In this document: one piece after another, positions 9,376-51,093 of the stretch
Layout: each line of letters starts with the position of its first letter
Numbering within the stretch: the first letter of the stretch is position 1
IMG/VR virus record: IMGVR_UViG_3300020442_002661
Location: 21,963 to 85,962 of that record
Strand: one strand, 5' to 3'
Length of the DNA stretch: 64,000 bases
From: a virus
Notes under the pieces: generated by a model
The model's database searches: none
What the model saw: only the letters and a program-made list of their open reading frames with translations
Told to the model about the DNA's origin: nothing
Made by a program: the position numbers and the translations under genes

Positions 9376-9383
9376 TATTTATC
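9376..9383 (-). promoter_or_regulatory. T4-type late promoter GATAAATA
   Basis: The octamer overlaps the gp17 stop codon and ends 5 nt before the ATG at 9370 (GATAAATA-CTAAT-ATG). There is no Shine-Dalgarno between, so a leaderless message is predicted. Confidence 0.75.
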
Positions 9384-19471: not shown

Positions 19472-19825
19472 ATGGTAAATAACAATATGAGACCATTATG
19501 TGTTTGTAAACAAAGACCTGCGGCGGTAAACTATAAAAAAGAAGGCAAAGTATACTACAGAAAAAAATGTGAAGTGTGCCTTAAAGGAAACCGTATAGGT
19601 GTAGGAATACCAAAGTGGAAGTTATCAGGATATATCAAAAAAGATACTTGTGAAAAATGTGGATTCAAAAGCAGACACAAAGAACAGTTCAATGTCTATC
19701 ATATTGATGGAGATTTGAATAATTGTTTGCCAAACAATTTAAAAACTGTATGTGCTAACTGTCAACGAATTATGCAGAAACAAGGCGTTCGTTGGAAGCA
19801 AGGAGACCTAACACCTGACTTCTAA
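19472..19825 (+). CDS. HNH-like endonuclease with zinc-binding Cys pairs
   Basis: This 117-aa protein has several CxxC or CxC pairs (LCVCKQ, CEVC, CEKCGF, CANC) and an HNH-like centre, VYHIDGDLNNCLPNNLKTVC. There the His and the Asn-Leu-x-x-Val-Cys pattern match HNH nucleases stabilised by zinc. It could be a homing-type or DNA-processing endonuclease. It sits as a lone plus-strand gene between the sheath gene and the gp1 operon. The ATG at 19487 is a possible alternative start. Its end overlaps the convergent gp1 gene by 56 nt, and this overlap region codes on both strands. Function is from the motif only. Confidence 0.6.
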   Translation: MVNNNMRPLCVCKQRPAAVNYKKEGKVYYRKKCEVCLKGNRIGVGIPKWKLSGYIKKDTCEKCGFKSRHKEQFNVYHIDGDLNNCLPNNLKTVCANCQRIMQKQGVRWKQGDLTPDF

Positions 19826-25567: not shown

Positions 25568-26815
25568 ATGATAAGAGTATATGGCGATATAATGCTAGAC
25601 AGGTGGATTAAAGGAGTATCACAGCGTGTTAGTCCTGAAGCACCAGTCCTTGTGTTACAAGAAGAAGAACAAATATTCTGCCCAGGCGGAGCAGGTAATC
25701 TTGCATTAAATATTGCAAGTCTTAATGGTAGTGTAAATGTATATGGTAGTATTGCACCAGATAAAGAAGGTTATAGAATTATTGATTGCTTTGAAAAGCA
25801 TCCAAAAATTAATTTTGCCGCTACACTAGATAGTAAAATTACAACTACAAAAAATAGATTAGTAGGTCAAGGAGGGCAACATATTGTACGTTGGGATAGA
25901 GAAGAACTTTATACCGGCGACGAAGCATACGAAAGATGTATAACAGATATAACAACAAAAGACATTGTGGTTGTAAGTGACTATGCAAAGGGAACTGTAA
26001 AAGAAAAAACTGTTTGGAATTTTGCTAGACGCTGTAAAACACTAGTAGATCCTAAACAAGCCCCTGCATATTATCAAGGAGCATATCTTGTAAAACCTAA
26101 TATGAAAGAATATGAAGGTTGGTTCGGAACATTCAATAAACTAGATGCATTAGATCATATTAAAACTTACGAATGGACCTATCTTGTTGTTACAGATGGT
26201 GCAAACGGTATGCATGTGTTAAGCGATGATGGAAGATATGAACATATTCAAGAAGAAGCAAAAGAAGTAGCAGACGTTACTGGTGCTGGAGACACTGTAC
26301 TGGCTGTCATTGCATACTTTATTGAACAAGGTTTAGATATGTTTGATGCTTGTAGGAAAGCATGTTATGCCGCGGCAAGAGCTGTAGAACACAGAGGAGT
26401 TCATGTAGTTACACATAACGACCTAGAAAAAGTAGTTTTTACAAACGGTGTTTTTGATATCTTGCACAAAGGACATTTACACTTATTGAAAGAAGCACGT
26501 AGTTTAGGTAATAAACTGATTGTAGCAATTAATACAGACGCAAGTGTACAAAGATTAAAAGGAAACGGCCGTCCTATTAACGATGTTCAAACAAGACAAG
26601 CACAATTAGAAGTATTGCCTTGGGTAGATGAGGTCATTACATTTACAGATGATACGCCTTTAGAACTTATTAATAAAATTAAACCAGATTTAATTGTCAA
26701 GGGTGGCGATTATAAAGTTGAAGATGTTGTTGGCCATGAGATTGCAGATGTGCATATTGTGCCTATAATAGACGGATTGTCGACATCTAATATAGTAGAA
26801 AAAATTACAATATGA
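25568..26815 (+). CDS. hldE: HldE-like bifunctional heptose kinase/adenylyltransferase
   Basis: This 415-aa protein has two domains. Residues 1 to about 285 are a PfkB-type kinase: DRWIKGVSQRVSPEAP, GGAGNLALNIASLNG and the late anion-hole motif VTGAGDTV. Residues of about 290-415 are a nucleotidyltransferase with TNGVFDILHKGHLHLL and VKGGDYKVEDVVG. This is the order of HldE (RfaE), which phosphorylates heptose-7-phosphate at C1 and later adds AMP in ADP-heptose synthesis. HldE is usually near 475 aa, so it is slightly short but carries both sites. It overlaps hldD by 4 nt. This is strong support for a phage heptose route. Confidence 0.85.
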   Translation: MIRVYGDIMLDRWIKGVSQRVSPEAPVLVLQEEEQIFCPGGAGNLALNIASLNGSVNVYGSIAPDKEGYRIIDCFEKHPKINFAATLDSKITTTKNRLVGQGGQHIVRWDREELYTGDEAYERCITDITTKDIVVVSDYAKGTVKEKTVWNFARRCKTLVDPKQAPAYYQGAYLVKPNMKEYEGWFGTFNKLDALDHIKTYEWTYLVVTDGANGMHVLSDDGRYEHIQEEAKEVADVTGAGDTVLAVIAYFIEQGLDMFDACRKACYAAARAVEHRGVHVVTHNDLEKVVFTNGVFDILHKGHLHLLKEARSLGNKLIVAINTDASVQRLKGNGRPINDVQTRQAQLEVLPWVDEVITFTDDTPLELINKIKPDLIVKGGDYKVEDVVGHEIADVHIVPIIDGLSTSNIVEKITI

Positions 26816-27636
26816 ACTTACTAATTACTGGCTCAAACGGATTTATAGGAAAAAATCTTGTAAATTATTTTGTTGATGAAGGACATACAGTTGCAGAATA
26901 TGATTACATAGAAAATGTAATTCCTGATTGTAGTCCTTTTGATCATGTTATTCATATGGGTGCTATTAGTTCTACAACAGAACGTAACGTAGAACAAGTC
27001 TTAACACAAAACTTAGATTTTAGTCATAGACTTTTACAAATTTGCGAAATGCAAGGAGTAAATTTAATTTATGCATCAAGTGCAAGCGTTTATGGAGATA
27101 CAGGCGTATTTAAAGAATATGGGCCCGTATATCCACAAAGTGCATATGCATGGAGCAAATACTTGTTTGACAGAACAATAAATCAAGTTGATAAAAAAGA
27201 TTGGATGTGCAACGTAAAAGGATTAAGATTCTTTAATGTTTACGGAGAGCATGAGGAAGATAAAGGTGATCAAATGAGTGTTTTTCATAAATTTAAAAAC
27301 CAAGCATTAGACACAGGAAAAGTTCATCCATTTGAAAATAGTAAAGAATATTTGAGAGATTTTATATATGTCGGCGATGTATGTAAAATTGTAGATAAGT
27401 TGTTAGATGTAGATGATAGTGGCATATACAATGTAGGTACAGGTACACCACGTAGTTTTCAAAGCATTGCAGAAGCAGTTGCAGAAAAATACAATGCAGA
27501 CATAGAACCAATACCTATGCCAGAAATACTTAAACAACAATATCAAAAATATACTTGTAGTGACAATACAAGACTACTTAAAGCAATAGGTAAATTTAAT
27601 TTTACAACACCGGAGGAATGGATATGCAAAGACTAG
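26812..27636 (+). CDS. hldD: HldD-like ADP-heptose 6-epimerase
   Basis: This 274-aa SDR protein has the NAD(P) loop TGSNGFIG (6-13), a YAWSK catalytic motif and HldD-like segments: GAISSTTE, YASSASVYG, RFFNVYG, EYLRDFIYVGDV and the final FQSIAEAVAEKY with IEPIPMPEILKQQYQ. HldD epimerises ADP-D-glycero-D-manno-heptose at C6. Normal length is about 310 aa. It overlaps hldE and the cupin gene (13 nt with the chosen cupin start). The match to HldD hallmarks is closer than to general epimerases such as GalE, but the exact substrate is inferred. Confidence 0.8.
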   Translation: MNLLITGSNGFIGKNLVNYFVDEGHTVAEYDYIENVIPDCSPFDHVIHMGAISSTTERNVEQVLTQNLDFSHRLLQICEMQGVNLIYASSASVYGDTGVFKEYGPVYPQSAYAWSKYLFDRTINQVDKKDWMCNVKGLRFFNVYGEHEEDKGDQMSVFHKFKNQALDTGKVHPFENSKEYLRDFIYVGDVCKIVDKLLDVDDSGIYNVGTGTPRSFQSIAEAVAEKYNADIEPIPMPEILKQQYQKYTCSDNTRLLKAIGKFNFTTPEEWICKD

Positions 27637-28046
27637 AAGGTAAAGTAGATAAAGGTTGGGGCTACGAAATAATTTGGGCCACAAATGAAAAATACTGTGG
27701 TAAAATACTTTTCTTTAACAAAAAAGGTTCAAAGTTTAGTATGCACTTTCATAGAGAAAAAGACGAAACATGGTTTGTTAACAACGGCAGTTTTGTTGTA
27801 CGCTGGATAGATACAAAAACAGCAACATTGTTTAGCCAAGTTCTTAAAGAAGGACAAACTTGGCATAATCCACCATTGCAACCACATCAATTAGAAGCAA
27901 TGGAAGATGGAAGCAGTATTACAGAAGTCAGCACAGCAGATAGTGTTGAAGACAACTACAGAGTAATTCCAGGTGATAGTCAATCGGAATTAACAACAAA
28001 AATTAAAGAGGTGGCAGATGCGCAGTCCAACGATAACGTGGAGTAA
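27624..28046 (+). CDS. Cupin protein in the heptose cassette
   Basis: This 140-aa protein has a single cupin barrel (KGWGYEIIWATNEKYCGKIL, then HFHREKDETWFVNNG and PPLQPHQLEA) with His residues placed as metal ligands. It starts with GWGYE, as sugar-phosphate isomerase or polysaccharide-related cupins do. The start at 27624 is chosen because GGAGG lies 7 nt upstream; the ATG at 27618 is too close to it. It overlaps hldD (13 nt) and the phosphatase gene (29 nt). It may isomerise or epimerise a sugar; function unproven. The nucleotidyltransferase-cupin at 340-1113 carries a related domain. Confidence 0.65.
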   Translation: MQRLEGKVDKGWGYEIIWATNEKYCGKILFFNKKGSKFSMHFHREKDETWFVNNGSFVVRWIDTKTATLFSQVLKEGQTWHNPPLQPHQLEAMEDGSSITEVSTADSVEDNYRVIPGDSQSELTTKIKEVADAQSNDNVE

Positions 28047-28653
28047 TGATGTAAACATTGATTTCTACAAACCAGATTATATTGCACCAAAGTGTGTTGT
28101 AGGTTTAGATAGAGATGGTGTTATTAATGTAGATATTGGAGATTACGTTTACAAAAAAAGTGACTGGAAATTTGAAGAGGGCAGTTTAGAAGCAATAGTA
28201 AAATTACGTAAATTAGGACACAAGATAGTTATTATAACTAATCAAGGCGGTATAGAAAAAGGTATCTACACACAAGAAGATGTAGAAAAATTACATGCAC
28301 ATATGTTTGAAGAATTTGGTAAGGCAGGTTGTCCTAGTATAGATGGATTGTACTACAGTGCATCAAGTGCAAAGAATGATATGTATGCAAAACCTAATAC
28401 AGGAATGTTTAAGCGTTGCGAAAAAGAAGTTCCTCATGTGAAATTTTCCCAAGGATATTATGTTGGTGATAGAATAAGAGATTTAAAGGCAGGATTAAAG
28501 ATGGGTGCGAAACCAATTCTAGTCCGAACTGGACATGGTAAAGAAACAGAAGAATTAATTAACAAAAGATTCACATATAAAAATATTAGGAAAGCAACAA
28601 AAGTATTTGATAACCTAGCCGCATTTGTTGATAGTTTAGATGATAATAGTTAG
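28018..28653 (+). CDS. gmhB: GmhB-like HAD phosphatase
   Basis: This 211-aa HAD-III enzyme has the catalytic GLDRDGVIN motif near residue 30 (first Asp the nucleophile), ITNQGGI, KPNTGMF and YVGDRIRDLKAG. It resembles GmhB, which removes the C7 phosphate from heptose-1,7-bisphosphate between the two HldE steps. The zinc-binding Cys/His loop of E. coli GmhB before the KPxPGM motif is absent (SASSAKNDMYAKP instead), so it may be a zinc-free variant. The first 25 residues are an extra stretch. Ribosome site GAGGTGG precedes the ATG. It overlaps the cupin and the next gene. Confidence 0.75.
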   Translation: MRSPTITWSNDVNIDFYKPDYIAPKCVVGLDRDGVINVDIGDYVYKKSDWKFEEGSLEAIVKLRKLGHKIVIITNQGGIEKGIYTQEDVEKLHAHMFEEFGKAGCPSIDGLYYSASSAKNDMYAKPNTGMFKRCEKEVPHVKFSQGYYVGDRIRDLKAGLKMGAKPILVRTGHGKETEELINKRFTYKNIRKATKVFDNLAAFVDSLDDNS

Positions 28654-38024: not shown

Positions 38025-39830
38025 TTAGGTGTTTTTTACAGTGATTAATTTGCCGTATTCAGGTAGATACAAGTACTCAATTTCACTATTTTGCAAGGTC
38101 CAAATAGCATCTTCAAGTTTTTCTACTAGAGGATCACCACCTAAATTAAAACTTGTATTGAATATAATAGGTAATCCTGTCTTTTCTTTGAATACTTTTA
38201 TAAGATCATAGTAATGCGGATTCTGTTCATGTGTTACTGTTTGAATACGACAAGTGCCATCTACATGTATAATACTAGGAATTTTTTCTGCTATTCCTTC
38301 TTGACAGTTGACAGCATACATCATATGCGGACTGTCGTCCATTCCACGTAGATCGAACCATTCATGCACATCTTCTTGTAGTATAGATCCTGCAAATGGA
38401 CGGAAATATTCTCTACGTTTTACTTTGTTAACATAATCTTTGCCATCTTCAAAACTAGGATCAAATAAAATACTTCTATTACCTAATGCTCTTGGACCGT
38501 TCTCGCTTTGGCCTTGGAAAATAGTTACAATATTCTTTTTTGTAAGCAATTCTACAACTTCTTCATGTGTAGAATCTTTCATTTCAACATCATCTGCACT
38601 AGTAAGCTCTTGTAATTGATCTTCAGTGTATGAATATTTTGGTCCTAAATATAATGTTTGTGTTTGACGCTTTTCAGTTTCGTCTTCTAGCCCATACCAA
38701 AACATCATTGCGGCACCCATTGCAGTACCAGCATCATTTGACACAGGCTCTACATACATTTCAATTCCTTTTTCACGTAACGTTTCTAAGTAATAATAGT
38801 TTGCAACACAATTTAATCCATATCCGCCACTCACTACTACTTTTTTCTTGCCTGTCATTTCGACTGCTTTTAGTATAAGATCTAAAACTTTTTCTTGTGT
38901 TTGTGTTTGCACAGCATATGCAATGTCTCTTCTACTTTGCAATAGAGTAACATCTTCTCCTTGGCGTGCAGGTTCTTTTAATTCATCGTATAAACCAGCG
39001 TTTATAAATGCGCCATTTGGATAATTTGGTACAACAATATTTCTATTTGTTAAAGGATACACTGCACCTTCTTCAAATAATTTTGGAAATTTATCATTTG
39101 GTTTACCATATGGAAACAAGCCCATTGTTTTTCCTGCTTCAATACTTGACCAACCGCAGTACATAGTTGCCGCTTCATATGCCTTTACAATTCCTGCTCT
39201 GTCATGTACAACTGCTGAGTGTGTTTTTCCATTTTCACCAAACATACTACTATCCATTTGAATAGCGGCACCTGTTACAGGTTCTCTTGTTCCATAAACT
39301 TTGTGTAGTGTAGAAAAGTTTGCAGGATATTCGCAATCAATAATACTTTCTGTTTCCCATGTCATGACTTGTTCTTCATTGATAGACAAAGGAATAAAAG
39401 TTCCTGCGCCATCAACAATAACACTTACTGCACTATCAAATCCTGAACGATAAAATGCACATGCACTATGAAGTTTGTGGTGCATAAATGCTAAATCTAT
39501 TACTTGTGGATGTTCGTATGTAGTAGAGTTAGACTTTTGATCTATCAATCCTAATTTTCTAGCAAGTCCTGTGTACACATCATCACCACTATAGTCAACT
39601 CTACCAGCAGTATCTCTCAATGATTGAGTATGTGCAACTACAAGATAATCTAACTTATCTGTATACTCTAAAATTTTGACCATACTTGCAAATGGTCCAC
39701 CGTCATATTTTTGTCTGCTTAATCTTTCTTCTTCAATAGAAAATATTACTTCTCCATCTTTAAGCAAGCATACGCCAGCATTGTGTCCTCTTGCAATACC
39801 TGCTATCCAAACTGGTTTTTTATCGCTCAT
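38025..39830 (-). CDS. NodU/TobZ-type carbamoyltransferase
   Basis: This 601-aa protein has both domains of the family. The N-terminal ASKHA part has ARGHNAGVCLLKDGEV, IEEERLSRQKYDGG, HHKLHSACAFYRSGF and VDGAGTF. The C-terminal YrdC-like part has QGQSENGPRALGNRSILFDP and REYFRPFAGSI. Members make carbamoyl-AMP and transfer the carbamoyl group to a sugar hydroxyl; WapO of Pseudomonas carbamoylates LPS heptose. The start directly follows the stop of the SGNH-like gene, and GT9 is next upstream, so the three form one unit. Length is normal for the family (about 570-610 aa). Acceptor unknown. Confidence 0.85.
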   Translation of the reverse strand: MSDKKPVWIAGIARGHNAGVCLLKDGEVIFSIEEERLSRQKYDGGPFASMVKILEYTDKLDYLVVAHTQSLRDTAGRVDYSGDDVYTGLARKLGLIDQKSNSTTYEHPQVIDLAFMHHKLHSACAFYRSGFDSAVSVIVDGAGTFIPLSINEEQVMTWETESIIDCEYPANFSTLHKVYGTREPVTGAAIQMDSSMFGENGKTHSAVVHDRAGIVKAYEAATMYCGWSSIEAGKTMGLFPYGKPNDKFPKLFEEGAVYPLTNRNIVVPNYPNGAFINAGLYDELKEPARQGEDVTLLQSRRDIAYAVQTQTQEKVLDLILKAVEMTGKKKVVVSGGYGLNCVANYYYLETLREKGIEMYVEPVSNDAGTAMGAAMMFWYGLEDETEKRQTQTLYLGPKYSYTEDQLQELTSADDVEMKDSTHEEVVELLTKKNIVTIFQGQSENGPRALGNRSILFDPSFEDGKDYVNKVKRREYFRPFAGSILQEDVHEWFDLRGMDDSPHMMYAVNCQEGIAEKIPSIIHVDGTCRIQTVTHEQNPHYYDLIKVFKEKTGLPIIFNTSFNLGGDPLVEKLEDAIWTLQNSEIEYLYLPEYGKLITVKNT

Positions 39831-40697
39831 TTAAAATCCTCTGTAATAATTACCCCAACCTTTAAGTTGTTTTCCTATACTATCAACAAAATAATCAAAA
39901 TCACCGTGTGTGCTAGTATAGCAGTTGTTTACTATATCTATCCATTTTTCTACTTGTTCAGGAGTATTCTGGCTTATATTTAATTTTGGTTTAACAACAT
40001 AATTCACGTAATCTGCATGTTGATTAATAGTAGGATGCCTATCTATATTAGGAGTAACACTATTTCTTATAATAAATTTGTATGGTTTTTCTGTATGTGT
40101 CCATGCAAAAACTCCAATAGGTTTTAACCATCTATCATTAAATATTTTATCTTTGTATTGTTTCAATTTAGGAATATCTTTCCATACATCTATTTTATTT
40201 GTGCTTTCTCCTTCACCGTTTCCGTCTTGAGGATAGTCACTATTCATTTTATTAATATACCCCATGCTTGTCATGTAATAATTAACACCAATACCTTCTA
40301 GAAACTTTTGTGTAAGCAGTATGTTATTAAGCGTATGCATCATATAACTATGTTCATCGAAAAAAGTTTTTATCCACTTTTCGTCATACAAATTTGCATT
40401 TATAAAATTAAAAATACTGCCAGATGTTTTCCAACCAACACCTGGTTGTGTATCATGACGCTGATCAAGTGTGTGCCAGTCATGTCTTAGATGACTTGTC
40501 CATTGTATTATTACTGTATCTTCTGGTGTTAATGTTTCTGATGCATGTAAATTAGCAACACGTTCTGCGATAGCTCTGTTGCCTAGTCCAGGATAAGCCC
40601 AATTTTCGTATGTGTCAAACTCACAACCTAGTATATCAGCCCAAGTAGGCCAAGCATAGTTTGTAAAAGAACACCCTAGTGCATAAAAACGTTTCAT
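39831..40697 (-). CDS. SGNH-hydrolase-like protein
   Basis: This 288-aa protein starts KRFYALGCSFTNY, the block I Ser motif (G-C-S-F-T) of the SGNH-like group found in marine phages. A GNRAIAERV segment could hold block II/III residues, and DRHPTINQHADYVN near residue 225 fits the D-x-x-H block V with Asp and His. Typical roles are deacetylation or acetylation of sugars and esters. It abuts the carbamoyltransferase start with no gap and overlaps the GT9 gene end by 1 nt, suggesting joint action on a glycan. The catalytic role is inferred from motifs. Confidence 0.6.
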   Translation of the reverse strand: MKRFYALGCSFTNYAWPTWADILGCEFDTYENWAYPGLGNRAIAERVANLHASETLTPEDTVIIQWTSHLRHDWHTLDQRHDTQPGVGWKTSGSIFNFINANLYDEKWIKTFFDEHSYMMHTLNNILLTQKFLEGIGVNYYMTSMGYINKMNSDYPQDGNGEGESTNKIDVWKDIPKLKQYKDKIFNDRWLKPIGVFAWTHTEKPYKFIIRNSVTPNIDRHPTINQHADYVNYVVKPKLNISQNTPEQVEKWIDIVNNCYTSTHGDFDYFVDSIGKQLKGWGNYYRGF

Positions 40698-41641
40698 TAT
40701 TCTGCGTCTGGATCATTTTCTCTTTTGATAACGCCAACAATATATTCACGCAGATTATCATCCATTTGCATTATACCTTCGTTAGCTCTATTAACAGTTT
40801 CGTCAACTGTAATTCTAATAGGATCGTATTGTCTATCTTTCATTCCCATGTCTACAATTTTTAATTTTTCTTGTCCTGGATATGATATGTTAATCGGAAA
40901 AGTAGATCCAACAACAACAGTAGTTTCTGTATCAACAGCATATGACAAATGTTGTCCAACACTATCACAACCTAAGAAATGATCTGCGGCTTTGATTACA
41001 CTTGTCCACTGCCTTAATCCTAGCCCCTCTGGCATAGCAACTTCGTTTTTCAATCCTTCACCTTTGAGCTCCATTTTCAATTCGCTCATCATAATAATTC
41101 CGTAATCTTTTTCTATAAGTTTTAATAACCTTTTTACATCAGCCCATTCAAAACTTCTTCCTGTTGAGTCCATAGGTGTTTCATTAATAATTTCTACACC
41201 TCTACCAAAAGGTTGGAATACTAATACTTTATCTTTTTTTAATTTTTGTTTTACTTCGTCAACTATTTGACGTCCTACAAGTATTTCATTATGACTTAAT
41301 TTTACAAAAGGTTTATCTAAATCTCTGACTCCTTTTTCATTAAGTAGAATATCAAATGCTTGTGATAAATTACATTTTTGATTATAGTATTCCCATACTT
41401 GATATGGTTCTGGGTTTACTACTTGCCTATGTTTTATTTCGCTTTCAAAAAGATTTTTATGCCAAGGATCGTATGCACGTTTATGTAGTGTAGGATGACC
41501 TTTAAACATATCTGTGCCACCTTCACATACGATAATAAAATCTTTATCTCCTGATTCTTCTTCATATTTTTCTAGTGCAGGAATAGAACACAGCATACGC
41601 CCAGCGCCGCCATTTAGAAAAAATGCCTTCGATCTTGTCAT
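40697..41641 (-). CDS. GT9 (heptosyltransferase-like) glycosyltransferase
   Basis: This 314-aa protein resembles the GT9 family, which includes WaaC/WaaF heptosyltransferases that use ADP-heptose. The start FLNGGAGRMLCSIPALEKY matches the G-G-x-G-D-x-L-x-x-x-P-A-L loop, with R in place of the usual D. The C-terminal part has FLGCDSVGQHLSYAV and VVGSTFPINISYP, in the place of the D-[ST]-G-x-x-H nucleotide-sugar motif. Because ADP-heptose genes are also present (25568-28653), a heptosyl-transfer role is attractive. Sequence is divergent, so confidence is moderate. It is the first gene of the unit with the SGNH-like protein and carbamoyltransferase. Confidence 0.6.
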   Translation of the reverse strand: MTRSKAFFLNGGAGRMLCSIPALEKYEEESGDKDFIIVCEGGTDMFKGHPTLHKRAYDPWHKNLFESEIKHRQVVNPEPYQVWEYYNQKCNLSQAFDILLNEKGVRDLDKPFVKLSHNEILVGRQIVDEVKQKLKKDKVLVFQPFGRGVEIINETPMDSTGRSFEWADVKRLLKLIEKDYGIIMMSELKMELKGEGLKNEVAMPEGLGLRQWTSVIKAADHFLGCDSVGQHLSYAVDTETTVVVGSTFPINISYPGQEKLKIVDMGMKDRQYDPIRITVDETVNRANEGIMQMDDNLREYIVGVIKRENDPDAE

Positions 41642-41739: not shown

Positions 41740-42444
41740 TTATGCTTCGCCTGCATCTGGTGGATTAGGATCATCCCAATCTGGAAGTGTTTCTTCTGAG
41801 AAAGGCCATTTCCAGTGATTAACATTAGCGTATTTACGTGGTGCATCATCTAACCAATCTGCATGGTTAGTAAGTGTAGTTCTTTCATCGTCTGTGAAAG
41901 TTTGGTTTGTGTCCGCTAAAGCACGTCTAATCGCATCTGATTGTCCCTCTAAACTGTCAAGAACACTTTGTCTTGAGTTATTGTGTTCTCTAAATTGAGG
42001 TTCTCTCCATGTGTCTGTTTCATGCGTGTATAGTAAACTGTCTTGGTAGTAAATGTGTGCCAACATACCTGTTGTACCTTCGTACACATGATTCCAAGTC
42101 CATTTATTACCGTCTGCATCAGTACATTCTTCTGTATAATCAGCGACATCTGGGTGTGTATACTCATCTGTCATAAATGCGGCGTAACGAGCTTTGTCGT
42201 CACTTTCCCATGCATCTAGCAATACATAATCGTAATCGTCTTGTTCGTATCCTGCTGGATCTAATGCTGGATCTGTTTTTTCATCTCCACGTCCCGCTTC
42301 GCGACACTGATTGTCATCTTTGTCCACTTGGACTAAGATATAACGAGGTCCAATATAGGTACACTCGAAAGTGTTACCATCCTCAGTCGTAGTATGATAC
42401 GGCTGATCGGGGTAGGTAACTGTAAATGTTTTTGTTTTAGCCAT
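41740..42444 (-). CDS. Acidic hypothetical protein near fibre genes
   Basis: This 234-aa protein is rich in Asp/Glu/Trp/Tyr with no known motif. The first 60 residues look like a beta domain (KTFTVTYPDQPYHTTTEDGN) and the centre has several Trp-containing stretches (WTWNHVYEG, then WPFSEETLPDWD near the end). GGAGATAGAG is upstream of the ATG and a weak late-like ATTAAATA (42472-42479) lies in the end of the previous gene. It is the last gene before the terminator. A small tail or fibre accessory role is likely from position. Confidence 0.55.
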   Translation of the reverse strand: MAKTKTFTVTYPDQPYHTTTEDGNTFECTYIGPRYILVQVDKDDNQCREAGRGDEKTDPALDPAGYEQDDYDYVLLDAWESDDKARYAAFMTDEYTHPDVADYTEECTDADGNKWTWNHVYEGTTGMLAHIYYQDSLLYTHETDTWREPQFREHNNSRQSVLDSLEGQSDAIRRALADTNQTFTDDERTTLTNHADWLDDAPRKYANVNHWKWPFSEETLPDWDDPNPPDAGEA

Positions 42445-42458
42445 TCTCTATCTCCGTT

Positions 42459-43415
42459 TTAGCTTTCTATATATTTAATTCGAACGATGCTATCACCACC
42501 GGCCCATCCATTATCTCTAACACCTGAACATGGTGTAGCCGCTGGACCACCTGATCCGTGTGGTACAAACATCGAACACCCTTGTGTTTGGTAACAACCA
42601 CAATGTCTATTACCGTCCCAACATTCAGTCCAATGACTTCCTGTGCCTGGCATTCTAGACAAACTATTTAGTGCGTTAATATAGCCTTGTATAGCCATTC
42701 CGGACCAATCTGATTGTCCATTGTCTGAGTCTAATGAATATGTTGCTACGCCACCGCACTCACTAAACATGCCTGGTGGTAATGCTGTATGGTGTTGTGT
42801 TGAACAGTTACAATTTGGATAGCAGTGCCAAAAAGTTACACAACTATATACTGTATCTCTGTTTACGTCTCCGCCGTAAGCATTTGCTTGCCAACTGTTA
42901 GCACATCTGTTACAAATGATACCGCAGTATCCGTTATACCTAGTTGAGCACCAGTTATTTGCTGAAAAACAGCACCAACGAGCTGTACCAGTTGTACACC
43001 AACTTGCACCACTCCATCCGCCTTCTGCACAAATACATCCATTGTTTCCTGAATTTCCTTGCCAGCATACTCTACCTGCTTCTGAACAACCTCTGTGACA
43101 TAAACTACCGTTACGACAACTCTTACCTGCATAACCACAAATCCAACATGTAGCCGCTACGTTAATTGTTTTCTTTGCATATGCACCAGAATTACCTGAA
43201 ATTGTTGCAGAACAACAGCACATTCTTGAAGCCGATCCGCCAGCGCCGATAACTTCTAATTCTACAGTTGCACTGCCCGGTGATATCCAACAAAAACATC
43301 CTGGGTATGTTGAGTAAGTTGCAACTTGTGAGTAGGACCAAATTTTTCCTTTTTCCAAGTTCTCCTCAACGCTGGCTGGACTTCTGCTCTGTAATAATGA
43401 TCTTAATCCTGCCAT
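42459..43415 (-). CDS. Cysteine-rich virion-type protein, copy 2
   Basis: This 318-aa protein contains 30 Cys (about 9%) including a CCC triplet near residue 65, many CxC and CxxC groups, and 13 or more Trp. The order is: a short helical start, beta strands ending in VELEVIGAGGSASRM, a Gly/Cys-rich centre, then GGPAATPCSGVRD and VRIKYIES. Start and end resemble Gly-rich fibre-tip domains of phages. It is a paralogue of the next gene (43418-44374, same length, same Cys pattern). A GGAGAG site stands before the ATG. Such Cys content in a protein folded in the cytosol suggests metal clusters or disulfide formation after release. Confidence 0.7.
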   Translation of the reverse strand: MAGLRSLLQSRSPASVEENLEKGKIWSYSQVATYSTYPGCFCWISPGSATVELEVIGAGGSASRMCCCSATISGNSGAYAKKTINVAATCWICGYAGKSCRNGSLCHRGCSEAGRVCWQGNSGNNGCICAEGGWSGASWCTTGTARWCCFSANNWCSTRYNGYCGIICNRCANSWQANAYGGDVNRDTVYSCVTFWHCYPNCNCSTQHHTALPPGMFSECGGVATYSLDSDNGQSDWSGMAIQGYINALNSLSRMPGTGSHWTECWDGNRHCGCYQTQGCSMFVPHGSGGPAATPCSGVRDNGWAGGDSIVRIKYIES

Positions 43416-43417
43416 GT

Positions 43418-44374
43418 TTAACTCTCCACAAACTTAATTCTAATTGCGCCCATTCCACCTCTAACAGCATGATCTCTCACGCCTGGGCAAGGCTGAGGTC
43501 CTGGTCCGCCAACTCCGTATGGTAACATACTTTGACAACCGTTAGTGTGATAACAACCACAACTTGTGTCGTTTCTAAAACAACCTTTCCATTGTGTACC
43601 CATTCCTGGGGATTTTCCTGTACCGTTAATTGCGGCTAATGCACTGCCCCAACCCATACCCGACCAATTCGAGTGAGCTGAATCACTATCCATTCCGTAA
43701 CCAACAACGCCTCCACATTCTGCAATCATGCCTGGAGGAAATGCAACAAAGCCTCTAAATAAACAAATACATGATGGGCGGCAACCATGGAAGCCCATAC
43801 ATGAAATGTTTCCGCATCTGTTTACGTCTCCGCCATATGCAATAGCGTCCCATTGTCCTGTACATTGATTACAAATTGTACCACAGTTTGGTCCTGTATT
43901 TGTATGACAGAAACCGCCTGCTCTAAAACAACAGTACATACTTGATCCGGTTGAACAATAACTTACTCCGCCTTTACCGCCTCTTGCACACATACAACCG
44001 TTTGTTGATGAGCTAAACCAGCAAAGCATAGTAGGTTCTGAACAACCTCTAAAGCATAATGCGTCTGAATTTCCACAAGCAAAACCTACACAACCGTATA
44101 TGTAGTTGCTTGTTCCCATTGTAATTGTTCTTTTACTGTAAGAACCGGAGTTACCTGGTAAACCATTACCACAACAGCACATTTTAGCACCAGAACCACC
44201 AGCACCCCACATTTCAATTGTCACTGTTCCTGTGGCAGTTGGACACCAACAAATACATTTACAAAACTTAGTATATGTATTGCCCTCCGCAAAGCTATAG
44301 ACTCTTCCAGTTTCTAGGTTATCTTCACCTTTACTCGGAACCTTAGCTTTAATTAGTGTTTCTAATGATGCCAT
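43418..44374 (-). CDS. Cysteine-rich virion-type protein, copy 1
   Basis: This 318-aa protein has 32 Cys (about 10%), with CKCICWC near residue 38 and the CCC triplet at about 65. Its skeleton aligns with the downstream copy: VTIEMWGAGGSGAKMCCC, then RGCSEP, GDVNR, PPGM-x-x-ECGGV, G-C-Y-H/Q-T-x-G-C and a C-terminal IRIKFVES. The copies are a tandem duplication with much divergence outside Cys and Gly. An AGGAGAAG ribosome site precedes the ATG. The Gly-rich core resembles adhesin tips at the ends of phage fibres, so host contact is a reasonable guess. No signal peptide is present. Confidence 0.7.
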   Translation of the reverse strand: MASLETLIKAKVPSKGEDNLETGRVYSFAEGNTYTKFCKCICWCPTATGTVTIEMWGAGGSGAKMCCCGNGLPGNSGSYSKRTITMGTSNYIYGCVGFACGNSDALCFRGCSEPTMLCWFSSSTNGCMCARGGKGGVSYCSTGSSMYCCFRAGGFCHTNTGPNCGTICNQCTGQWDAIAYGGDVNRCGNISCMGFHGCRPSCICLFRGFVAFPPGMIAECGGVVGYGMDSDSAHSNWSGMGWGSALAAINGTGKSPGMGTQWKGCFRNDTSCGCYHTNGCQSMLPYGVGGPGPQPCPGVRDHAVRGGMGAIRIKFVES

Positions 44375-44405: not shown

Positions 44406-44738
44406 TTATACTGCTCCAATAATCCAACCATATGTTGAACCACTGTAAATAAGTGTAACAATAGCGCCACTAACATCAATTGTTAGATTGTCAGCCGCGT
44501 TATTAATCTCACTGCCGTTACGATCAACTGTAATGTTGTTCGTTGCCGCGTTGTTTGCAATATCAATGATTTGAATTGTATCATCTACTAGCAAACTTGC
44601 ATTAGCAGGGAGTGTTACAGTATAAGCACCGCCAGCAGTATCAACTAATAATCTATCGTTGACTGCCGCTGAGTAGTTTCCGCTTACTGTTCTAGTTGTA
44701 ACACCAGCTGTACCAGTTGTTGTAATATATCTTCCCAT
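44406..44738 (-). CDS. Small fibre-type virion protein
   Basis: This 110-aa protein reads as an all-beta module (GGAYTVTLPANASL, then DTIQIIDIANNAATNNITVDRN and a final LIYSGSTYGWIIG). The same module occurs in many marine phage tail-fibre proteins as a cap or repeat. It has a late promoter (CATAAATA) and an AGGAGAAGG ribosome site. A weak AT-rich hairpin is around 44393-44413 at its end. It may be a fibre subunit or a small adaptor in the fibre. Confidence 0.55.
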   Translation of the reverse strand: MGRYITTTGTAGVTTRTVSGNYSAAVNDRLLVDTAGGAYTVTLPANASLLVDDTIQIIDIANNAATNNITVDRNGSEINNAADNLTIDVSGAIVTLIYSGSTYGWIIGAV

Positions 44739-44760: not shown

Positions 44761-44768
44761 TATTTATG
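44761..44768 (-). promoter_or_regulatory. T4-type late promoter CATAAATA
   Basis: It is 22 nt before the ATG at 44738 with AGGAGAAGG between. It overlaps the stop of the upstream gene. Confidence 0.65.
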
Positions 44769-45084
44769 CAGTTGATGTCTCAATGCCCATAGCTACAGCA
44801 GAAATATTTGCACTCGATGAGTACGCTACTATTTTCTGCCCTGCCGCTAAGACAATACCAGTGCGCTCTAGCACACCTTTTGATAAAATTTCAACACCGT
44901 ATTCGATGTATTCACCGTCTGTTGGGGTATCTGCCGCCGCCACTGCAATCCTAATTGCACTAGCCTGGTTACCCCTGTTACACAAGTTTAAACTTGCTAC
45001 CGCGTATGTATCTGCTGGACAGGTGTAAACAGTTACGTTAGCACCCGCTGTCAAATCATTTGCGCCTAGTCTTCCTGTTGCCAT
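44764..45084 (-). CDS. Small virion-type protein
   Basis: This 106-aa beta-rich protein (RLGANDLTAGANVTVYTCPADT, then LNLCNRGNQASAIRIAV and LERTGIVLAAGQKIVAYSS) belongs to a group of small proteins seen next to tail fibres in marine T4-like phages. I cannot name its role. It overlaps the late promoter of the gene below and follows the 1997-aa fibre gene closely, so it is in a late unit. A structural protein in the fibre or baseplate is likely. Confidence 0.55.
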   Translation of the reverse strand: MATGRLGANDLTAGANVTVYTCPADTYAVASLNLCNRGNQASAIRIAVAAADTPTDGEYIEYGVEILSKGVLERTGIVLAAGQKIVAYSSSANISAVAMGIETSTA

Positions 45085-45099
45085 TTTTTACTTCTCCAT

Positions 45100-48000
45100 T
45101 TAGTTTAGTAAGAACATGTTTAGTGCTACTGGTGCACCGTCTATTCCACCTGTAAAGTTTACTCTATCTTCTATATTTATCTTAGCATCGGATGTGGTAG
45201 AAATTGTGTCTCCTGTAATTTCTATGACACCTGCTGTTACACTGTTAACGTTCAATGTAGCAACACCACCACCAATTTGTGATGTGATGTAAGTTTTAAT
45301 AGCTTTTTGTGTTGGTACAATACTATCACTATCTGCACTAAACGTACCATCAGTACTGAATTCTGTAATTACAGCTCCAGCACCTCCTAGTGCAACACTA
45401 CCTAATTGTAGTTCGTTCAACCCTGAGATGTTAAACGCTTCAACGTTAAGTGTAGCAATACCAGTTGCCTGTTCAACGTTAAACAATCCACCAACTCTAA
45501 AGTTACCGTCTTGGTCGGTGGATGTGTAGAACACTCTTCCTCCACCAAAATCATTTGTTTCTCTATCTGGTATCGGATCACTTAAAGGATCACCTGGATA
45601 GTTTGTATTACCAAAGTTACCAGTACCAATATCTAGGAAGTCATGTCCTGTTAGACGCACCTGTGAATATCTACGTCTAATTGTAATTGCATCTTGATGT
45701 GGAGGTCTTTCATCCGCTTCAAGTTTAGGACTAATTTGTAATATTGCGCTGTAAGGTCCTGCGCCAATTAGGCTTGTGACACTTACAAGTTTGTACCATG
45801 TATTTGGTCTACTTGCAAATTCTACGTTAGCACCTTTTTGTGGAATAGCATCTAAATTGTCAACTCTAATCTTTGTTCCAGTTTGTCTAATATCAGATAA
45901 ACCATCACCTACAACTGTTGCACTTGCTGTAACAAAACCTGTTCCTCTATTTGAGAATGTAGGTTGTCCAAGAACACCATCGCCAACTCTTACTGTATGT
46001 GGAACTAGCACAGTTGCGTTTGGATCGACAACAGTCATTTGTGGAGGATTATTTGCATCATATCCTGAACCAGGTTCAATAATTTTAACCTCAACTACTT
46101 TTTCATCAGCTACTCTTGCTCTTCCTCTTGCTCTTATACCACTAGCTGGTGCATCAAAAATTATTCTAGGAGTAATATCGTACTGTGAAGTAGCATCAAG
46201 TGTTGCTTCAATCGACGCACCTGTAATGTGTTCAAAGCCGCTTGTACCATCTGATTCTTTTTCAATAGTTGCAATTTTTGTACTTGCGTTGAATGATGTA
46301 ATTACGCCATACTGTCCAGCACCAAGTCCGCTTACAATGTATAGCATCATGCCGTTGTATGCACCTGTCGGTTGAACGTCTGTTGCCGCTAGTGTAATAC
46401 TTGTAGCATTACCTGCCTGTGCCGCACTATTTGTAGTTAAGAAACCATCACCGCCATATACAGTTGAGTCTTCTTCAAGTTGCACTTCAAACACTCCGCC
46501 ATCGCGTAATGTAATTCCACTTACTGCCGCACCAAAGCCTTCACCACTAATAGTATATCTAGTTGCTTCGCCTATTGTTTGTACGTCAAATGTTAGGTTG
46601 GCGCCGCCGCCGCCACCGAGTGAACTATCATTAATTGTAATTGTATCACTTATTGCATGACCTGTACCACCTTTGATAACTGTTACAGTTGCTCCACCTG
46701 TTGATGAAACTTCAACATCAAATTCTTGTCCTGTTCCTGAGCCAGCACTCGAACCTGTAATACCTTTATAAGTTCCTGCTGTACGGTTAGCATCGTTACC
46801 GCTTACATTGTGTACTGTAAGAATTGCTGTGCTTGTATTAGTATATCCTTGTCCTGCGTTTTGATATTCAAGTTGTAAGATTTCGTCTGCACCGTCTGTT
46901 TGAACAAAACTTATAATTGCTTCTAACTGTTGGTTGTCAACTTCACCTGTTACTGGAGTTTCTGTATCATCAATACCTTCAGCAACTGAACCAAAGTCAC
47001 CGTAAGAGTTGTTTCCGTTTGTAGCACGAATCTTACCACCATTCTCTGCAAGATATCCCATGTGACAATAGTATGTAAACACTGAAACAAGTTCTGAACG
47101 TCCTAGGTTTGTAACCCAATAACCAATACCATCACTCAATATCTGTGTAAAGTCGTTAGCAACAATACTGTCATTACCTGCTTGGTGTAAGTCACCATCA
47201 ACTTTCATTCCAATACATGCTGTACCAAATGTTGATACGTTTTGCACGTAAGGCGATTTATTTGTAATATGTACTCTAGTATCATATGGATTATATCCTG
47301 GATCTAGTGATACATAAGCACCTGCTGTTGGACGTTTTGTACCATAAGTATTTGCTGAACCCAATGTTCCTGTCAATCCACTTGTAGTACAGTTACGTAA
47401 ACCAGTACCATTTCTCATGTAGAACATATCATATAATATACTACCGTTTACAGCATTTGCATAGAACGTAGCGTTCATTAGCGTTGAATAATTACCTGTG
47501 TAAATTAAGTCATATTTTAGTCCATCGATATAATTTCTTACATCTCTTGAACAAGCCGCTATATCATATGTATAACTTGGATACTGCACACCTATGTATG
47601 CATGTACTTCTGCTACTAAGAAATCTTTGTTTTGTTCTAAAATTTCAACAGCATATGTGTGTGTTGTTGCTGTTTCTGGTGTATTAGTACCGCAGAAAAT
47701 AGGAGCAACATCACCTGAGCTAGATGTTTCAGCATCAATTTTGTATGCTAACATATCTAATAATTCAAATGCTTCTGCACCTGCACCGTTTGCCGCTATA
47801 AGTGCCGCTTTTGCTCTAATATGTCTTACAGCTGATTTTTGTCCAACTAATTGATCGTTGTAAACTTTTTGTGCTGATGCATTTACTCTAAAGTATGAGT
47901 TACCAGCTGTTACTGATCTATAATTTGTATTAAATGCCATATCATAACTAATAGCATCAACCATTAATTGACTATCTCTGTTACATAATGTTTCGTTGAA

Positions 48001-51000
48001 AACAAAATCTTGTGATGCTTTTACATGATGTACTGTGTGGTTAGCAATTTCTGCTTTTGCATCTTGAAGTTCTGTGTGTGAACTTTGTATTGCACTTGAC
48101 GCCCAAGTAATTACAGGTGTTGTTTCTGCATCTTGTCCTGTTAAGTTTCCTGCATTTACTGTTGTTTGTATATTTGTTAGTAAGTTTGAAACTTCAGTAC
48201 CTTCAGTTGATGATGCCGCTGTACCTGATGTATCTTGTGTTTCAGAGTTTCCTGTTGATTTTGTAACTGCTGTTTCTTGTACAATTTGACTTGCAACAGT
48301 TGCTAAACGTCCATAAGCCGCCGCTACTGCTGTTTTTTGACCTGAAGGAGTATAAGGAGCACCATTAGGATCAAACTTAGTACCTTTGTTGTGTCTATGA
48401 GTAGCAGAATTACCACCATATTGTACATCGTAACTTGCCGCATCAATTGCATAACCTATTTCTTTTTCAAACGCATTTGTATCTGTAACAATACCTGCAT
48501 AATTTACAGCTAACCATGCTGTAATTTCTGCTACCATAAAAGCTCTGTTTGCTTGTAATTGTTCTCTAGCAAAACGCTTGTTATTATCTACACCAGGATC
48601 ACTAAAATATATTTCACGTCCTGTAAATCCTTCACCACCGTCAAGAATATCAAGAATAGTGTCAGCCATATCCTTAACTCTATCTCTTGCAGTATCACTA
48701 CCTGCACTACCTGCTGGTCTTGAAGTTACTTGAGATTCTGCATTACCTGTGCTTTTTGTAATACTTGTATTTGTAATAACATCTGAAACAACATCTCTCA
48801 ACCTACCAATTGCCGCTAAACTATATGTTATATCACTAGTGTCAACTGAGGATGGAGCAGGTTTAATACGAGTAGAACGTAATTCGTCACCTACAACTGC
48901 TGTATCTTCAGGAACTCTAATTGGATGATTTTCTAAATATTCACCTGTTTTTACAAAAATTGTTTTTTGCGCTTTTAATATTGCAGGCACACCGTTTGTG
49001 TTTCCTGCTGTAATAGCATTTGTAATAATATCAATTAAATTTGCAATAGTTGTGTTTACACCTGTTGTTTTATCAAATCCGCTTGGCTTGATTTGTGTAA
49101 TAGGACTTGCAACACTATTAAGTGTTTGATAATTCGCCGCTGGATCTTCTTTATTTAGAACATTTCCTATAACTGTTTCTAAATAATTAATTGCCGCTAC
49201 GGTTTCATCTTCTTGTCCATTAATATAACTTAATCCACCAGTTGTAAAATATGCTAAAGCCGCTTCTCTTGAACGTACATTACCTCCGTGACTTAAATCC
49301 CAAATAATAGCATCAATAATAATACCTGTATCTCTGCGACATTTTTCTTTATTGTATGTAAACGATCCTGTGAATGGAGAAATAACGTTTGCAATTTGAT
49401 AATCAACCCATTCAACAACTTCTGCTTGCATAAATGCACGGTTGACTTCCATTAAATATTTGTCTTCGTAACTGTTTGCACCCTTTTCAATCCAATCAGC
49501 CGCATATCTTACAGTTTTGTAAGGTCTGTCTAGTGTAATACCACGTTTAGGTGGACGATCGTCCACACCGTCTTCGGCGTCAACAAAATACACATGATTG
49601 ATTTGTCCAAAGTATGTCCACTCTGGTGCATCTGCCGCATCGTTAACTTTCAATACTTGTCCAGGTTTACCAACTGGTAAACGTGTTGGTCCTGATCCGC
49701 CGTAGTAAACGATATCACCAGCAGTTGTTAAGTTACCTGCTTCAGTACCACCACTAAAGAAATTCCAATAATCTCCTGCTGTATCTTGGTCTGGTCTATT
49801 TTGATCTGTAACTTGATCAGCTGTGTGTGCATCAACACAAACATATGCGTTAACACCATGTGTAACTGTATCACCTAGTACGTATGCTGTACCGTTTGCC
49901 CAAGCCGATCTAAAATTAAAACCTTCATTAAGTTTTTCCCAGTAGCTTGTGTTAGGTGGTTGTTGACCGTTTGAGTTTGCTGTTGCAAGATAAGTGTAAC
50001 CACCTAATGTAACAACGTCACCTGTTTTGTAGTCTTGGTTAGTTGAGTCTGAACCCCATTCGCCTCTTAAGTTAAATCCTGTAATGAATACGTCCCAATC
50101 ATTTGGCGATTCTGCAGGTTTCTTCTCACTGTTGTTTGTTTTTGCGACATAAGTGTACCCACCGTATGTTACAATGTCACCAACTTGGTATTCACTGTAT
50201 GGTCCCCATGTGTCTTCAAATTCTAAACCTGGAATAAACACACTCCAGTTAGCCTCATCTGGCGTTAAGTTTTCACTTACACTTGATGTGTGATAAGTTG
50301 TACAAATCCAAATTGTACCTGAATCTTTAACTACATCATTTACTTTGTAACGTGTAGCACTTGTCCAGTCACCTAAGTATTCAATACCTTTATGGAAGTA
50401 ATCCCACTTAGCCTGGTCTGCTTCAAGACCTAAAGTATTAGTTGCCGCAGATGTGTGACCTGTATTACAACTATAAACTTGTCCACCATACTTAACAAGA
50501 TCATTTACTTTGTATCTTGTGTTTACTGTCCAATCTGTTTTCCAGTCAAAGCCGTCACTAAATGTATCCCACTTGTTTTGATCTAATTCTAAACCATTAG
50601 CAAGAACTGCTGTACTTGAATGATATGCTGTACAAATATAAAGTTTTGCACCGTATTTTACAATATCATTTACTTTATAACGTGTGCTGATTGCCCAATC
50701 ACCTTTGTAATCAAAGCCTTCGCCAAATAAATCCCAATACGCAGAAGTACTATCATCGCCTAAGTTACTTTCCAGACCACCAATGGCACTTGAGTCTGAA
50801 ATATGTCCTGTGTTTGCAATGTAAAGTTGCCCGCCGTATTTTACAATATCGTTAATTTTATAAACTGTACCTGTTGCCCAGTCGCCTCTCCAAGTTTGCC
50901 CATCTGCAAACTGTTGCCACTTAGGTGTTGAATCATTCAAATCCAACATGAAATCTGTTTGTGCTATATGCCCTACTACACATATAAATGTACGGCCGCC

Positions 51001-51093
51001 GTATCTTACTACGTCATCCTTATAATAGGTGGTATTCTCAGACCATTCGTCTTTCCAAATAAATCTAATTCTACCTAATTTAAACTCTGCCAT
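45100..51093 (-). CDS. Giant tail fibre (1997 aa) with CBM-like repeats
   Basis: The N-terminal 460 residues hold eight repeats of a chitin-binding-type pattern: W-x4-x-Y-x3-D-x-V-x-Y-G-G-x3-Y-x-C-x3-H. A beta-helix-type region (VYFVDAEDGVDDRPPKRG) follows, then four helical modules with C-x-R-D...Y-D-x-x-x-G-N. The C-terminal part has LTGHDFLDIGTG, then YTSTDQDGNFRVG and IVPTQKAIKTYI. It shares this frame with the 1637-aa fibre but lacks the Asp-box propeller of the sister. Late promoter GATAAATA (51116-51123) and a GGAG ribosome site precede it. It likely contacts the cell surface. Confidence 0.75.
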   Translation of the reverse strand: MAEFKLGRIRFIWKDEWSENTTYYKDDVVRYGGRTFICVVGHIAQTDFMLDLNDSTPKWQQFADGQTWRGDWATGTVYKINDIVKYGGQLYIANTGHISDSSAIGGLESNLGDDSTSAYWDLFGEGFDYKGDWAISTRYKVNDIVKYGAKLYICTAYHSSTAVLANGLELDQNKWDTFSDGFDWKTDWTVNTRYKVNDLVKYGGQVYSCNTGHTSAATNTLGLEADQAKWDYFHKGIEYLGDWTSATRYKVNDVVKDSGTIWICTTYHTSSVSENLTPDEANWSVFIPGLEFEDTWGPYSEYQVGDIVTYGGYTYVAKTNNSEKKPAESPNDWDVFITGFNLRGEWGSDSTNQDYKTGDVVTLGGYTYLATANSNGQQPPNTSYWEKLNEGFNFRSAWANGTAYVLGDTVTHGVNAYVCVDAHTADQVTDQNRPDQDTAGDYWNFFSGGTEAGNLTTAGDIVYYGGSGPTRLPVGKPGQVLKVNDAADAPEWTYFGQINHVYFVDAEDGVDDRPPKRGITLDRPYKTVRYAADWIEKGANSYEDKYLMEVNRAFMQAEVVEWVDYQIANVISPFTGSFTYNKEKCRRDTGIIIDAIIWDLSHGGNVRSREAALAYFTTGGLSYINGQEDETVAAINYLETVIGNVLNKEDPAANYQTLNSVASPITQIKPSGFDKTTGVNTTIANLIDIITNAITAGNTNGVPAILKAQKTIFVKTGEYLENHPIRVPEDTAVVGDELRSTRIKPAPSSVDTSDITYSLAAIGRLRDVVSDVITNTSITKSTGNAESQVTSRPAGSAGSDTARDRVKDMADTILDILDGGEGFTGREIYFSDPGVDNNKRFAREQLQANRAFMVAEITAWLAVNYAGIVTDTNAFEKEIGYAIDAASYDVQYGGNSATHRHNKGTKFDPNGAPYTPSGQKTAVAAAYGRLATVASQIVQETAVTKSTGNSETQDTSGTAASSTEGTEVSNLLTNIQTTVNAGNLTGQDAETTPVITWASSAIQSSHTELQDAKAEIANHTVHHVKASQDFVFNETLCNRDSQLMVDAISYDMAFNTNYRSVTAGNSYFRVNASAQKVYNDQLVGQKSAVRHIRAKAALIAANGAGAEAFELLDMLAYKIDAETSSSGDVAPIFCGTNTPETATTHTYAVEILEQNKDFLVAEVHAYIGVQYPSYTYDIAACSRDVRNYIDGLKYDLIYTGNYSTLMNATFYANAVNGSILYDMFYMRNGTGLRNCTTSGLTGTLGSANTYGTKRPTAGAYVSLDPGYNPYDTRVHITNKSPYVQNVSTFGTACIGMKVDGDLHQAGNDSIVANDFTQILSDGIGYWVTNLGRSELVSVFTYYCHMGYLAENGGKIRATNGNNSYGDFGSVAEGIDDTETPVTGEVDNQQLEAIISFVQTDGADEILQLEYQNAGQGYTNTSTAILTVHNVSGNDANRTAGTYKGITGSSAGSGTGQEFDVEVSSTGGATVTVIKGGTGHAISDTITINDSSLGGGGGANLTFDVQTIGEATRYTISGEGFGAAVSGITLRDGGVFEVQLEEDSTVYGGDGFLTTNSAAQAGNATSITLAATDVQPTGAYNGMMLYIVSGLGAGQYGVITSFNASTKIATIEKESDGTSGFEHITGASIEATLDATSQYDITPRIIFDAPASGIRARGRARVADEKVVEVKIIEPGSGYDANNPPQMTVVDPNATVLVPHTVRVGDGVLGQPTFSNRGTGFVTASATVVGDGLSDIRQTGTKIRVDNLDAIPQKGANVEFASRPNTWYKLVSVTSLIGAGPYSAILQISPKLEADERPPHQDAITIRRRYSQVRLTGHDFLDIGTGNFGNTNYPGDPLSDPIPDRETNDFGGGRVFYTSTDQDGNFRVGGLFNVEQATGIATLNVEAFNISGLNELQLGSVALGGAGAVITEFSTDGTFSADSDSIVPTQKAIKTYITSQIGGGVATLNVNSVTAGVIEITGDTISTTSDAKINIEDRVNFTGGIDGAPVALNMFLLN

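Follow-up and report, generated by a model that had tools for sequence, protein, structure and literature searches.

The window analysed here is a 64,000-nucleotide stretch of viral DNA (IMG/VR record IMGVR_UViG_3300020442_002661). Two adjacent ORFs on its minus strand, P1 and P2, encode proteins of equal length that are extremely rich in cysteine. The features of the window that bear on these two genes are as follows.

25568..26815 (+): HldE-like heptose-7-phosphate kinase / heptose-1-phosphate adenylyltransferase (352 bits, below the equivalog cut-off of 521)
26812..27636 (+): HldD-like ADP-heptose 6-epimerase (TIGR02197, 241 bits; cut-off 274.6)
28018..28653 (+): GmhB-like heptose bisphosphatase (NF006506, 137 bits; cut-off 178)
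38025..39830 (-): NodU-type carbamoyltransferase (PF16861, E 7e-58; PF02543, E 9e-25)
39831..40697 (-): 288-aa protein without a family match, between the GT-like and carbamoyltransferase genes
40697..41641 (-): putative GT9 (heptosyltransferase)-like protein, phrog_8954 (weak GT9 similarity)
41740..42444 (-): 234-aa partner protein (phrog_9740 match, E 6e-8)
42459..43415 (-): P1, tandem paralogue of P2 (318 aa, 30 Cys)
43418..44374 (-): P2, Cys-rich protein with a predicted TNF-like and glycine-rich fibre-tip fold (318 aa, 32 Cys)
44406..44738 (-): small fibre-associated protein, 110 aa (tail protein PHROGs; same location in S-CAM1, S-CAM3, and P-SSM2)
44764..45084 (-): small fibre-associated protein, 106 aa (PHROG match)
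45100..51093 (-): large fibre protein, 1997 aa, upstream of the above (where S-CAM1, S-CAM3, and P-SSM2 have their annotated tail fiber genes)

The other ORFs of the window contain 134 Cys in 20,263 aa (0.66%), and the Cys excess over this background had a binomial p of ~1e-24 for P1 and ~1e-27 for P2. These values, together with the invariance of the Cys residues despite TGT/TGC turnover described below, rule out chance or a compositional artefact as the origin of the Cys density. P1 and P2 were 45% identical overall and 41% identical at non-Cys positions; 28 Cys positions were common to both, two were found only in P1, and four only in P2. The original prediction of tandem 318-aa paralogues with 30 and 32 Cys, strongly diverged non-Cys positions, and a conserved CCC triplet was thus borne out, the triplet being located at 66-68. 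A sequence search against solved structures gave no match, query A1 giving weak antibody matches only, and a toxin identity of the Cys-rich proteins was dropped because the Ntox44 match (E 0.024) was below the cut-off. Another small Cys-rich protein (117 aa, 9 Cys) is encoded at 19472-19825 (+) of the window.

The gene order large fibre, two small fibre-associated proteins, Cys-rich proteins, phrog_9740-like protein, phrog_8954, and carbamoyltransferase was also observed in S-CAM1, S-CAM3, and P-SSM2, except that the phrog_9740-like gene of P-SSM2 lies between its two Cys-rich genes. A gene for 286-288 aa sits between the phrog_8954 and carbamoyltransferase genes in the window lineage. The model of the 234-aa phrog_9740-like protein (pLDDT 86) consisted of a beta domain and a C-terminal helical hairpin and gave no clear match in the PDB; a fibre chaperone is a possible role for it. 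A "cysteine dioxygenase" annotated near the module in P-SSM2, S-CAM1, and S-CAM3 was considered as a Cys enzyme and dropped: Cupin_2 was the only match above the cut-off for the P-SSM2 protein (L046, 17637-17990), and its annotation is therefore likely to be wrong.

Both P1 and P2 matched PHROG 4205 (function unknown). The 206 distinct proteins of this family contained 6.5-12.4% Cys, with a median of 10.2%. Relatives were found in 14 IMG/VR contigs closely related to the window, in many further IMG/VR contigs, in Synechococcus phages S-CAM1, S-CAM3, and S-SSM7 (three copies each), and in Prochlorococcus phage P-SSM2 (two copies, PSSM2_304 and PSSM2_306), the family being laid out as tandem pairs or trios behind the fibre genes of marine T4-like phages. 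According to the tree, the tandem copies of the window lineage, S-SSM7, and P-SSM2 have separate origins, and the three S-CAM slots are kept across several phages. A 182-kb relative (G001), in which psbA was not found, has a third copy ~22 kb from its pair, and one P1 orthologue (L014, 4973-5701) is apparently truncated (242 aa, 25 Cys). A search for PHROG 4205 in S-SM1, Syn9, S-PM2, P-SSM4, S-SM2, HTVC008M, and P-HM1 gave no match in any of the seven phages; the published cyanophage virion proteomes that we found are those of S-SM1, S-PM2, and Syn9, and none of these three phages has a family match. Our literature search found no publication on Cys-rich phage fibre tips.

Cysteine was the most conserved residue type among the orthologues from IMG/VR contigs (n = 10 for P2 and n = 8 for P1, window copies included). 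Of 62 Cys columns, 61 were invariant, and 38 of the invariant columns used both TGT and TGC; the mean dN was 0.13-0.16 and the dS 0.9-1.2. In the wider family, at ~25% identity, about a dozen Cys columns were still conserved in at least 82% of the members. The possibility, raised with the original prediction, that the cysteines might not be conserved in homologues was therefore not borne out. That prediction had also pointed to CxxC groups as a feature of the proteins; in the family, CxxC occurred at 0.86x the chance level and it was adjacent CC that was enriched instead (1.6x).

The invariance of Cys alongside synonymous codon turnover, as well as the enrichment of CC pairs, argues for disulfide-locked tips, in which the thiols, kept reduced inside the host, would become oxidised once the cell has lysed and cross-brace the glycine-rich loops, the GT-like enzyme acting on something else, either on the same tips or at the surface of the host. 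The phages Milano (PMC10811340) and 7-7-1 (PMC12796354) are known to have disulfide networks in their virions, and the available parts of these two reports provide a precedent for many virion cysteines. The contents given there (1.45% Cys proteome-wide and 2.58% in the 7-7-1 capsid proteins) compare with 9-10% in P1 and P2, and those parts describe no GT link, unlike the locus studied here. Moreover, even Cys counts were not favoured, either among the 206 distinct family proteins (102 odd and 104 even) or among the family representatives (26 odd and 16 even), and pairwise Cys co-loss on the tree, tested as a sign of disulfides, gave no convincing signal. We regard a disulfide lock as the main rival explanation, and as rather unlikely. 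The high Cys density and the CCC motif would also agree with metal-binding tips, which would hold Zn, Cu, or Fe on Cys for stability or metal uptake; the lack of CxxC enrichment and the low His content of the family (~1.8%) speak against this, and we consider it very unlikely.

Structure prediction, which had been proposed with the original prediction, was carried out for P2 using AF2 with 98 family sequences (mean pLDDT 68, pTM 0.70). The predicted fold of P1 and P2 combines a TNF-like beta sandwich with a glycine-rich loop lattice and has a short helix at the N-terminus. In the AF2 model, the N-terminus of P2 was helical only at residues 4-10, so that a long helical trimerisation domain is absent from it; in the P-SSM2 members, the N-terminal region is longer. 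The best structural match was the Pam3 fibre 7ypx (Z 16.5, 2.9 A, 193 residues), followed by the Bxb1 tail tip (Z 12.3) and ALK/LTK (Z 7.7-9.2), the rest being below 5; among viral models, the best matches were the S-CAM3 and P-SSM2 relatives together with glycine-rich tail proteins. PF21722 (Gly_rich_2) matched 43 of the 98 family members and exceeded its curated cut-off (24.3 bits) in S-CAM1 (40.4 bits) and S-SSM7 (26.4 bits). P1 and P2 themselves gave no PF21722 match at E<=1 and appear as a Cys-rich branch of these phage glycine-rich tail proteins.

The Pam3 fibre gp24 recognises the receptor (PMC9608196). Like P1 and P2, it combines a TNF-like domain with a glycine-rich tip and has a partner gene next door; its domain is 39% Gly, and the main text of that paper does not mention cysteine, whereas P1 and P2 contain 9-10% Cys. 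The tandem paralogues, the short N-terminal helix, and the GT-like gene further distinguish P1 and P2 from Pam3. The S16/PP01 gp38 polyglycine-sandwich adhesins resemble P1 and P2 in having a glycine-rich lattice at the receptor-binding fibre tip; they differ in being carried on a beta-helix domain, and dense Cys is not reported in the available part of the gp38 literature. S16-type gp38 (beta-helix plus polyglycine sandwich) was not among the structural matches listed for the P2 model. From these models, P1 and P2 look like paralogous adhesins at the tail-fibre tips of an aquatic phage related to T4, for which we infer a virion location. The original prediction had described an adhesin or fibre tip with a glycine-rich core, and this part is supported by the Pam3 match, by the PF21722 matches of relatives, and by the position behind the fibre genes.

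The phrog_8954 gene accompanied the Cys-rich genes almost without exception. Among loci with enough sequence, it lay just downstream of them in 87 of 88, a phrog_9740-like gene was linked in 92 of 94, and a carbamoyltransferase gene in 10 of 10, although locus counts here and below do not represent independent events because many loci are closely related. The sole locus with room and without a phrog_8954 match (L119) has a 419-aa ORF without a Pfam match instead. The records of the phage collection that matched the GT-like gene at an identity of at least 36% were S-CAM1, S-CAM3, Sf-FS3, S-SSM7, S-SSM6a, P-SSM2, P-SSM5, and AG-345, and all except AG-345-P14 and AG-345-O18 had already matched the phrog_4205 family. 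Both exceptions carry, beside the GT-like gene, Cys-rich proteins with no phrog_4205 match: one of 282 aa with 26 Cys in AG-345-P14, and two in AG-345-O18 (758 aa with 73 Cys and 290 aa with 31 Cys). The 758-aa protein has no Pfam match. On reading this locus (L141, 2024-4300), the 106-aa protein appears to be split by a Cys-rich insert of ~650 aa, with its ends flanking the insert.

IMG/VR was then queried with the GT-like genes of AG-345-P14 and AG-345-O18, which gave 136 loci; the two AG-345 loci, Vibrio D505, and Aeromonas HJ05 were added, and the 127 loci with >2.5 kb upstream were counted. Cys-rich ORFs were present within 5 kb upstream of the GT-like gene in 120 of the 127 loci. The phrog_4205 family accounted for 61 of these, and the remaining 59 contained only other families, defined by the lack of BLAST or HMM similarity to phrog_4205, for which distant homology is possible. 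Around the GT-like gene, Cys-rich ORFs made up 257 of 481 upstream and 7 of 561 downstream. The seven loci without a Cys-rich ORF upstream were five marine loci, Vibrio D505, and Aeromonas HJ05. All four marine exceptions on longer contigs had three phrog_4205 copies elsewhere in the record, those read containing 8.4-10% Cys; the fifth (L209) is a 9-kb contig. Clustering by BLAST yielded 23 clusters, one of which is a Peptidase_S74 fibre (E 5e-15). Single proteins included one with a weak Gly_rich_2 match (L154) and a giant one of 1156 aa with 134 Cys and no Pfam match (L251). The other Cys-rich clusters had no common Cys spacing motif, which is a further point against metal sites, and the residues flanking Cys formed no sequon, the one deviation in both sets being a lower frequency of Pro at +1. 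Neither the metal nor the disulfide use suggested in the original prediction explains why Cys-richness tracks the GT-like gene across families.

The assignment of phrog_8954 as a GT9-like enzyme is a prediction from remote similarity. PF01075 (GT9) was found in 12 of 14 phrog_8954 members with a best E of 1e-4, and the window protein scored 15.1 bits, under the curated cut-off of 22. Alignment with E. coli WaaF/WaaC by hhalign covered 229 columns (E 1e-3) with a probability of just 22%, and a DSxGxH-type motif of the members aligned with WaaF/WaaC; no match was obtained in the PDB. In WaaC, an Asp after the N-terminal Gly serves as the base. The phage proteins have Arg at this position, which, speculatively, a thiol acceptor might tolerate.

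Remote homologues gave a similar picture. The GT homologue of Aeromonas phage HJ05, with 22.9% identity to the window protein, adjoins a glycine-rich tail protein whose densest 150 residues include 17 Cys, and the corresponding values for the tail proteins beside the homologues of Vibrio phages SBP1 and K479 were 13 and 15 Cys. These tail proteins had the highest Cys density of the sampled stretches (50 kb of HJ05, 16.6 and 46 kb of SBP1, and 16.6 kb of K479). S-SM1, Syn9, S-PM2, and HTVC008M, which have no GT-profile match, each had only one ORF, short and marginal, that came to 5-6% Cys; HTVC008M does have carbamoyltransferases. The stretches read of HJ05 and the Vibrio phages gave no carbamoyltransferase match. 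A heptose adenylyltransferase match was found in P-SSM2, S-CAM1, S-CAM3, S-SSM7, and G001, and also in S-SM2, which has no phrog_4205 match; it was found neither in S-PM2, Syn9, S-SM1, P-SSM4, HTVC008M, and P-HM1, which have no family match, nor in the Vibrio and Aeromonas phages. Because of this patchy distribution, donor supply is not a constant part of the module. Its constant parts are the GT-like gene and the Cys-dense tail protein.

Since the GT-like gene pairs with Cys density whatever the family, Cys as the acceptor is the simplest account; it also fits the equal odd and even Cys counts and the lack of a spacing motif, a sequon, and convincing co-loss. In the explanation that we tentatively favour, the dense cysteines would be the functional element of the module, and the tips would be glycosylated by the GT9-like partner, with Cys as the likeliest acceptor. 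The cysteines of the tips would be S-linked acceptors of a heptose-type sugar. The window phage may make the donor of this sugar through its own HldE-, GmhB-, and HldD-like genes, and the host may supply it to the Vibrio and Aeromonas phages. The sugar could be decorated further by the NodU-type carbamoyltransferase, and the virion would end up with a sugar-coated tip. That the tips are the substrate of the enzyme seems fairly probable, and that the sugar is S-linked to Cys is possible, if somewhat doubtful. More doubtful is a widespread phage S-glycosylation system in which the enzyme would load dozens of Cys on unrelated tips, with phage-made ADP-heptose in some lineages, to form a thio-glycan coat. 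According to the available part of the literature, S-glycosylation (sugar on Cys) is known in glycocins, which, unlike fibre tips, are small bacteriocin peptides; the likeness lies in the Cys acceptor.

Several observations argue against S-glycosylation. Invariance of nearly every Cys is commoner where residues form disulfides or metal sites than where they accept glycans, the predicted GT9 assignment is weak, and the carbamoyltransferase and heptose genes are not present in all phages. Instead, the target of the enzyme could be Ser, Thr, or Asn in the tips, or it could be the surface of the host. The former alternative, with Cys in a separate structural role needed in glycosylated fibres, agrees with the GT linkage of the loci and with the TibC-type heptosyltransferases, which hyperglycosylate autotransporter adhesins (PMC4358343). 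TibC/BAHT likewise pair a GT9-like enzyme with an adhesin and use ADP-heptose as the donor; their substrates, however, are autotransporters, and their four-Cys CxxC iron-finger is missing in the window phrog_8954 protein, which has Cys only at 18, 39, 90, and 225. As the tie between Cys-richness and the GT-like gene across unrelated families would then be mere coincidence, we judge glycosylation on Ser, Thr, or Asn to be distinctly unlikely. In the latter alternative, the GT-like enzyme and carbamoyltransferase would change a glycan on the surface of the infected host, for instance as a means of preventing re-adsorption, and this glycan would be what the tips bind. The heptose and carbamoyl genes nearby agree with this; it gives no reason for Cys-dense tips, and the Vibrio and Aeromonas phages have no carbamoyltransferase or heptose gene match, and we give it hardly any weight.

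Phage fibre tips decide host range. The proteins described here form a class new to our literature search, presumably extracellular, with ~10% Cys, made in the reducing cytosol, and tied to one GT-like gene, and this tie spans T4-like phages as well as Vibrio and Aeromonas phages. If the tips are glycosylated on Cys, as we tentatively propose, viruses would gain a new system of protein modification; if they are not so modified, the cysteines would form the densest disulfide or metal system of any virion known to us. Cultured carriers are P-SSM2, S-CAM1, S-SSM7, Aeromonas phage HJ05, and Vibrio phage SBP1.

The terminase large subunit of the window (9382-10962) was closest (53%) to those of Pseudomonas PA5oct-like phages and not of cyanophages; despite this, the window shares its fibre module with cyanophages. 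Finally, two contigs filed under Euryarchaeota MAGs (L136 and L137) bear this Cys-rich locus of phages, with query identities of 67% and 33%, respectively, and are therefore probably phage contigs in archaeal bins.
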